From the NCBI RefSeq assembly GCF_023639785.1, contig NZ_CP098325.1:992001-1056000 (forward strand): a stretch of 64,000 nucleotides of DNA, given 5' to 3'. Below, piece by piece: positions 5,703-6,178 of this stretch (its first letter is position 1; each line of letters opens with the position of its first letter). The DNA comes from Leclercia adecarboxylata (GTDB lineage Bacteria > Pseudomonadota > Gammaproteobacteria > Enterobacterales > Enterobacteriaceae). Below the pieces are notes generated by a model. The model was not told where the DNA came from and ran no database searches. It saw nothing but the letters and a program-made list of their open reading frames with translations. Made by a program: the position numbers and the translations under genes.

Positions 5703-5732
5703 TCAGGAACAGGTTGAATAACCTGTTCCTGA
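5703..5732 (-). terminator. Hairpin after the double-glycine peptide gene
   Basis: Perfect 13-bp stem (5703-5715 with 5720-5732) and a gaat loop, 13 bp after the stop codon of the minus-strand gene at 5746. The following tract on the minus strand is only T-rich (ATTTAAG), so it may be a weak terminator or an mRNA-stabilising hairpin. Confidence 0.6.
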
Positions 5733-5745
5733 GACAAAACCTTTT

Positions 5746-6078
5746 TTACGCGCTGGCTTTTACCAGGAAATTATTCCAGTCGCCAGCCGCATTATCCACG
5801 AAGGTTGACCAGCTATTTCCCGCAGTCTGAACAAACCCGTTCCAGTTATTTGCACCGGTAGTCACGAAGGTTTCCCAGTTGGTGGCACCGACCACGAACG
5901 AGCCAAACGCGATGGCGCTGTCCACAACGAACTCAGCGAAGGCGTTACCAGAGGTCAGGACAAAGGAGCCAAAGCCAGCCCCGGAGTTACAGACAAAACG
6001 GGTAAAGCCGGTTGCAGCGCCCATCAGGTTAAAACCACCGGAGATATCGTGCATTTCATTCAGTGATAATTCTTTCAC
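5746..6078 (-). CDS. Orphan double-glycine-leader peptide with eight hendecad repeats (microcin-like)
   Basis: 110 residues. I do not recognise an orthologue. The GTG start at 6078 has an AAGGA site (6086-6090) at 7-nt spacing; an ATG at 6138 would add 20 residues with no ribosome-binding site and would bury the leader. Residues 1-15 (VKELSLNEMHDISGG, first residue read as Met) fit the class II microcin/colicin V leader pattern ending in Gly-Gly, the cut site of C39-peptidase ABC exporters. The predicted 95-residue mature part has a short FNLMGAAT lead-in, then eight units of about 11 residues (24-110) with consensus [small][F/W]xxFV plus five small or polar residues. Units 1-4 carry Phe and units 5-8 Trp at position 2. 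The mature part is acidic (about -3) with one Cys. No immunity gene, C39 exporter or maturation gene lies nearby. Function is inferred: secreted or membrane-active peptide, possibly a bacteriocin. Confidence 0.72.
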   Translation of the reverse strand: MKELSLNEMHDISGGFNLMGAATGFTRFVCNSGAGFGSFVLTSGNAFAEFVVDSAIAFGSFVVGATNWETFVTTGANNWNGFVQTAGNSWSTFVDNAAGDWNNFLVKASA

Positions 6079-6178
6079 TTTTATTTCCTTATTAAATGAA
6101 AAAGTGTGAGCAAAATACTCACGCCGGAAGAGTAGCACTCCCGAATATCAACGAGACAGGCAAAGTTGAGCAAACTTG

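Follow-up and report, generated by a model that had tools for sequence, protein, structure and literature searches.

A conserved double-glycine peptide of Leclercia adecarboxylata with 11-residue repeats, and its probable export by a distant C39 exporter

How a peptide with an export leader would leave the cell when no exporter is encoded beside it, and what it would do there, is the question raised by a gene in Leclercia adecarboxylata. The window analysed, a stretch of 64,000 nucleotides (nt) of contig NZ_CP098325.1 (positions 992,001 to 1,056,000), contains at 5746-6078 of its reverse strand a GTG-started frame with a TAA stop that encodes a 110-residue precursor, hereafter the type A peptide. 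A preliminary description of the window had noted the absence of an adjacent exporter or peptidase gene, which was found again here, and had offered among its explanations an orphan bacteriocin or the cargo of a C39 exporter elsewhere. Judged from its leader and from its distribution over genomes, the peptide is very probably exported by a C39 exporter encoded about 630 kb away. It would be a conserved secreted peptide and the companion of a fimbria-linked system resembling the Cdz-like ones; taken whole, this statement could equally well hold or fail.

The peptide gene, its leader and its repeats

On re-reading of the window, the frame, the GTG start and the coordinates given in the preliminary description were unchanged, and the good ribosome-binding site reported there was located as AAGGAA, 6 nt ahead of the GTG. 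The reading frame is open further, up to 6138; the start was nevertheless placed at 6078 because of the conserved leader and of an extended -10 element at 6129-6137. For comparison, a family of 21 genes was aligned, of which 9 are from genus g1 (that of the window), 11 from genus g2 and one (G002) from a third genus, with duplicate named records (L008-L010) and the type B paralogues described below left out. An ATG or GTG start was found at the same leader in all 21 genes, the length was 110 residues in 20 of them (100 residues in G300), and the ratio of non-synonymous to synonymous substitution rates (dN/dS) was 0.03-0.24 in 13 chosen pairs. The frame at 5746-6078 is a real gene, conserved in sequence and under selection.

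A leader profile was built from 34 leaders of peptides encoded adjacent to exporters, all of which have Met1, Leu4, Glu8 and Met9. On this profile none of the 34 leaders fell below 39 bits. Scores lay between 25 and 46 bits for the 21 type A leaders (36.0 for that of the window) and between 38 and 42 bits for four type B peptides; a ColV-like peptide encoded near a different exporter reached 17.7 bits, and none of 250 background open reading frame (ORF) starts exceeded 4.2 bits. Among the type A leaders, Met1 and Leu4 were present in 21/21, Glu8 in 19/21 and Met9 in 20/21. The double-glycine leader proposed earlier, with Gly-Gly at residue 15, is kept in all 21 aligned genes; a homologue lacking it, which according to the preliminary description would argue against secretion, was not found among them.

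The eight units of 11 residues reported for residues 24-110 (10 residues in the fourth) were recovered. In the mature part, 30 identities were counted at lag 11, and 20,000 shuffles, each allowed its own best lag in the range of 5 to 15, gave a mean of 12.3 and a maximum of 25; the 11-residue repeat is far beyond chance. Self-identities numbered 20 at lag 22 and 15 at lag 43, and the latter peak fits a duplicated four-unit block minus one residue. As described earlier, units 1-4 have Phe and units 5-8 have Trp as their second residue, and each holds for 20-21 of 21 rows. The fifth residue is Phe in 18-21 of the 21 rows, and the paired aromatic positions are nearly invariant over the family. 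With the 21-row alignment, AlphaFold2 gave a helical hairpin (mean predicted local distance difference test score (pLDDT), 92.9; predicted template modelling score, 0.72) with helices at residues 18-62 and 68-109, so that the Phe block and the Trp block are predicted to be its two arms. The duplication of a four-unit block that had been suggested from the change of Phe to Trp is supported and corresponds to these arms. In each of the two helices the hydrophobic moment was maximal at 97-97.5 degrees per residue, close to the value of 98.2 for an 11/3 helix. Among the residues of the mature part, 17 are Phe or Trp, 5 are acidic and 2 are basic. The strict Gly zipper, GxxxGxxxG, was found in 0/21 type A peptides; a relaxed form occurred in 12/21, with no excess over shuffles (0.56), and is absent from the peptide of the window. 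The peptide is a simple predicted two-helix fold made from a single 11-residue unit.

The distant exporter and its co-occurrence with the peptide

The search of the same genome for C39 exporters, recommended in the preliminary description, returned one strong and one weak C39 protein, the latter belonging to a different type I system (L015). The strong exporter is encoded at G000:C1:363448-365580. At its locus (L011), groEL and yjeI are followed on the opposite strand, in 5' to 3' order, by the genes for a fimbrial subunit, a chaperone, an usher, an adhesin-like protein, five peptides of 107-108 residues, a HlyD protein (429 amino acids), the C39 ATP-binding cassette (ABC) exporter (710 amino acids) and YjeJ (PF15922); further on lies the gene for a Trans_reg_C-domain protein. 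The C39 Cys, His and Asp and the Walker A motif are all present in this exporter; with narrow patterns, they were detected in 25, 24, 22 and 20, respectively, of 25 exporter orthologues. The five peptides have leaders very similar to that of type A. GxxxGxxxG was found in 30/30 exporter-adjacent peptides (66% expected in shuffles), and a model of one of these Gly-zipper peptides consisted of helices (pLDDT, 80.8). The type A peptide is therefore an orphan by position but not by genome, which encodes a C39 exporter, a HlyD partner and peptides with similar leaders about 630 kb away.

An exporter orthologue was defined by at least 70% identity over the C39 part (next best match, 50% in g1 and 57% in g2). 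Among 81 genomes of the two genera, it was present in 19/20 peptide carriers and 3/61 non-carriers (19 with both, 1 with the peptide only, 3 with the exporter only and 58 with neither). Within g1 (61 genomes), 9 had the peptide, 11 the exporter and 8 both (8/9 carriers vs 3/52 others); within g2 (20 genomes), the 11 genomes with the peptide were the same 11 that had the exporter (11/11 carriers vs 0/9 others). Across the bacterial family, where 4 of 295 sampled genomes carried the peptide, the exporter was found in 4/4 carriers vs 2/291 others, namely G046 and G142.

Genome G347 has the type A peptide only and no C39 protein at all. At its groEL locus, a yjeJ (26% identity over 274 residues) lies beside an IS3-like element, identified by reading of its two frames, at the usual site of the exporter, and G316, G001 and G144, free of both exporter and peptide, have no yjeJ there; this suggests that G347 probably lost its exporter. 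Genome G335 carries the exporter without type A; following its cyoE there is a type B peptide.

For 18 genomes (G300 left out as an outlier, G313 for a groEL outside the stretch and G347 as exporterless), the identity of the peptide followed that of groEL (r 0.62, p 0.0003) and that of the exporter did not (r -0.11). Peptide and exporter identities were uncorrelated (r 0.00), so common inheritance of a pair of alleles does not suffice to explain why they occur together. In G296, the exporter is 93% like that of the window genome and the peptide 98% like that of G303; exporter alleles appear to have been exchanged between lineages while the peptide stayed.

Several points weigh against this coupling or its reach. 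Its Fisher p value of 1.9e-14 ignores kinship. At a cut-off of 55%, three g2 genomes (G301, G307, G311) turn exporter-only, which raises the non-carriers with an exporter to 6/61. Any C39 match (E 0.001) is found in 38/61 genomes of g1 and 18/20 of g2; such matches being common, it is to this orthologue group that the coupling applies. The exporter is present and the type A peptide absent in G315, G321, G046 and G142, of which G315, G046 and G142 are plain exceptions; in the stretches of G321 that were read, no fimbrial operon, Gly-zipper peptide or hairpin peptide was found. G300 was counted as a carrier with a peptide only about 30% identical, the most diverged; a transposase-like gene splits its hlyD (L109 10119-11099(+)), no Gly-zipper peptide was found at its exporter locus, and its inclusion lowers the peptide-groEL correlation to r 0.27 (p 0.11). 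The identities of hairpin and Gly-zipper peptides are uncorrelated (r 0.00), which lends no direct support to a partnership between them.

If the likeness to a leader were incidental, the product could be a non-secreted intracellular or membrane-bound small protein, comparable to the two-helix ATP-synthase c subunits or phasins. The leader kept in 21/21 genes and matching the exporter-adjacent ones, the co-occurrence with the exporter and the relic state of G347 all speak against this, and we consider it very improbable. Export by the distant C39 exporter is preferred on the strength of the leader and the co-occurrence; the exporter in the genome, the similar local leaders and the coupling over 81 genomes strengthen both the secreted double-glycine peptide and the C39 cargo of the preliminary description.

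The role of the peptide and its alternatives

The C39 domain of the distant exporter would recognise the leader and cut after Gly15, and the product would be exported with the HlyD partner encoded next to the exporter, presumably through TolC, whose presence in the genome is assumed from what is general in Enterobacteriaceae. The 95-residue product would then fold as a helical hairpin with one arm of four Phe units and one arm of four Trp units, and the aromatic faces of the arms would either lie packed together or enter a membrane. The hairpin would most likely act at or outside the cell surface, accompanying as an invariable element the fast-varying Gly-zipper peptides that are produced next to the exporter and the fimbrial operon; exporter and fimbria-linked Gly-zipper locus would together form a Cdz-like contact-dependent system. 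Cleavage, export, surface action and the partnership with the Gly-zipper peptides are steps that we infer, and the companion role, taken by itself, is plausible but somewhat doubtful. A bolder proposal, for Klebsiella and relatives, is a two-part extracellular device in which both kinds of peptide are secreted by one exporter and a constant unlinked hairpin scaffolds, anchors or delivers the variable Gly-zipper peptides at cell contacts; this we offer tentatively, as probably an overreach.

The link to fimbriae comes from the gene order. A chaperone-usher operon lies beside the exporter in 10 of 12 gene-listed loci (by Pfam for the own genome, by eye for the others). Three genomes (G364, G306 and G313) have the exporter on the other side of the fimbrial operon, yet their Gly-zipper peptides are still encoded at the operon end, which ties these peptides to the fimbriae. 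An earlier reading of G364 and G306 as lacking Gly-zipper peptides was rejected when further stretches showed them at that end. Mean identities over the 20 exporter genomes were 0.83 for the exporter, 0.74 for HlyD, 0.69 for the hairpin peptide, 0.40 for YjeJ and 0.39 for the Gly-zipper peptides.

The same operons, together with the conservation, the repeats and the few charges of the peptide, would suit a structural matrix or attachment peptide. Its hairpins, once secreted, would assemble at the cell surface or about the fimbriae and aid aggregation or biofilm formation. EbfG1-4 of Synechococcus offer a precedent, as small double-glycine proteins that leave the cell through a C39 transporter and have a role other than that of a bacteriocin (PMC4997328). 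The likeness is by description, not by sequence comparison, and the fimbriae may be mere neighbours. This explanation seems unlikely.

A self-sufficient bacteriocin like the class II microcins, using the same exporter, active on membranes, lethal to related bacteria and with its immunity encoded elsewhere or unneeded, would account for the kind of leader, the C39 exporter in the genome, and the aromatic amphipathic helices of a 9.9-kDa product. According to PMC9746304, nearly 100% of the assemblies from K. pneumoniae, K. quasipneumoniae, K. variicola and K. aerogenes contain putative microcins, and further ones are given for Klebsiella and Enterobacter in PMC11494933; hairpin or Gly-zipper peptides may be among those counted. 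Against a bacteriocin, the gene is not beside the exporter, no immunity gene is linked to it (a search at the 21 loci for conserved ORFs with boundaries of their own and at least 40 codons gave nothing within 700 bases besides cyoE and yajR), and its sequence is conserved across species (mean identity 0.69) and not allelically diverse, in contrast to the Gly-zipper peptides (0.39). The orphan bacteriocin of the preliminary description was thus not borne out, and a bacteriocin of this kind is rated as improbable. The preferred reading remains a conserved, exported companion of the fimbria-linked locus.

YjeJ, the last gene product of the exporter operon, varies as much as the Gly-zipper peptides do (yjeJ: L011 6578-7426(-), L186 3866-4735(-)). 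It is not claimed as an immunity protein: its identities track those of the exporter (r 0.84) and those of the Gly-zipper peptides weakly once exporter or HlyD identity is removed (r 0.20, p 0.05, and r 0.16, p 0.09, respectively). In E. coli K-12, yjeJ stands alone between yjeI and epmB and may be the leftover of a lost exporter. In passages of PMC10679819, where yjeJ is mentioned many times, the gene serves as a linked marker.

Further features and comparison with known systems

The features located are collected in Table 1.

Table 1. Coordinates of the peptide gene, its signals and related peptide genes (positions of the window unless a locus is named)
Feature	Coordinates	Strand	Remark
Type A hairpin peptide precursor gene, 110 residues	5746-6078	-	21-gene family; dN/dS <0.25 in 13 chosen pairs
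Leader, residues 1-15, ends Gly-Gly	6034-6078	-	36.0 bits on exporter-adjacent leader profile
Predicted mature peptide, residues 16-110 (95 amino acids, 9,912 Da, isoelectric point 4.1)	5749-6033	-	cleavage inferred
Units 1-4 (Phe type), residues 24-66	5881-6009	-	mostly within predicted helix 1 (residues 18-62)
Units 5-8 (Trp type), residues 67-110	5749-5880	-	predicted helix 2 (residues 68-109)
Ribosome-binding site AAGGAA	6085-6090	-	read from sequence
Stem-loop (GTGAG, 7-nt loop, CTCAC) at likely mRNA 5' end	6106-6122	-	stem in 21/21 genes
Extended -10 element TGNTANNNT	6129-6137	-	58-68 nt before start in 21/21 genes
Type B peptide genes	L012 6725-7051, L127 9844-10170, L129 10790-11116, L142 850-1176	-	
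Five tandem Gly-zipper double-glycine peptides	L011 11094-12836	-	
Gly-zipper peptides at fimbrial operon end	L187 5008-5807(-), L188 1278-2033(+), L093 18045-18794(+)		

A promoter and a hairpin at the 5' end of the mRNA are predicted from the sequence upstream of the start. The stem lies 4-10 nt after the -10 element in 21/21 genes, with 15 different stem sequences that alignment does not bring into register. In single-gene shuffles, 9/21 stems fell below 0.05, and the stem of G333 has only 3 bp; the stem-loop was accepted because of its constancy of place, not of single-gene significance. Such a hairpin usually protects the mRNA. Three of the four type B genes have the TGNTANNNT element at 63-67 nt (stems by eye), and 1/23 exporter-operon starts (hlyD of G364) has this element at a similar distance. 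Downstream of the stop codon, positions 5704-5731 form a perfect inverted repeat with arms of 12 nt and a loop of 4 nt; the strand of the gene shows no good T run there. Antisense frames, open in 21/21 loci from 44 codons upwards, have no common ends and were taken as a by-product.

The gene cyoE lies at most 2.5 kb upstream in 18/21 loci and yajR downstream in 9/21; in G002, the gene was read at another place, before comEC. A profile search of 394 genomes of the order, with at most 12 candidates scored per genome, gave only G000 and G347 among the matches listed, a listing that did not extend to 372 of the genomes, and is a poor guide to absence beyond the three genera. At blastn sensitivity, no genome with most of the locus or most of the exporter gene was found in E. 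coli. The peptide letters of CP125156 (labelled K. pneumoniae) equal those of G305, and those of LR134125 (K. aerogenes) equal those of G242, both members of g2. CP125156.1 (L008), a 5.37-Mb record labelled as a plasmid, carries cyoABCDE and other chromosomal genes and looks like a mislabelled chromosome.

Type B is a second unlinked double-glycine peptide that shares with type A the leader and the end motif W-S-[ND]-F-V; in LR134125 (L009) it is broken into two frames. Two other double-glycine peptides were seen: one in the K. aerogenes-like G242 near a second C39 exporter (L174 11180-11497(-)), which we take to resemble colicin V, and a Ser/Gly-rich one in G356 beside a more distant exporter of 50% identity (L177 10780-11061(-)).

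Alpha-synuclein and the type I antifreeze proteins are amphipathic helices with 11-residue repeats, a period that they have in common with the type A peptide; unlike them, the latter has Phe and Trp arms in a predicted hairpin and an export leader, and homology is not claimed. With the class II microcins (MccV, MccE492 and their relatives), whose components are those given in PMC9746304, it shares a Gly-Gly leader of about 15 residues and the presence in the genome of a C39 ABC exporter, with catalytic residues, and HlyD. It differs from them in its eight units, its predicted hairpin, its distance from the exporter and the lack of a linked immunity gene, looked for near the precursor only.

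Cdz of Caulobacter and the Cdz-like systems are also close. Cdz-like proteins, as characterised in PMC5380434, have 60-151 residues, a leader ending in G[G/A/S], a Gly zipper and a place within about 10 kb of a type I system. The type A peptide agrees in size (110 residues), in its Gly-Gly leader and in its putative type I exporter, but has no strict Gly zipper, is encoded ~630 kb from the exporter in G000 and is much less variable. The exporter locus with its GxxxGxxxG peptides, in turn, fits that description; the same source lists Cdz-like loci in K. pneumoniae among others and adhesion genes near many, its named example being thin aggregative fimbriae and not, as here, a chaperone-usher operon. 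The peptide was filed neither as Cdz-like nor as a class II microcin because it lacks the Gly zipper, the proximity and the linked immunity gene. Literature searches, with the supplementary sequences of PMC9746304 and PMC11494933 outside their scope, returned no paper on an unlinked cargo built of such 11-residue (hendecad) repeats. Bacteriocin searches beside exporters (about 10 kb in PMC5380434) would overlook such a cargo or class it as an orphan. Should the coupling prove functional, a Cdz-like system of Klebsiella-type bacteria may have a constant, unlinked component.
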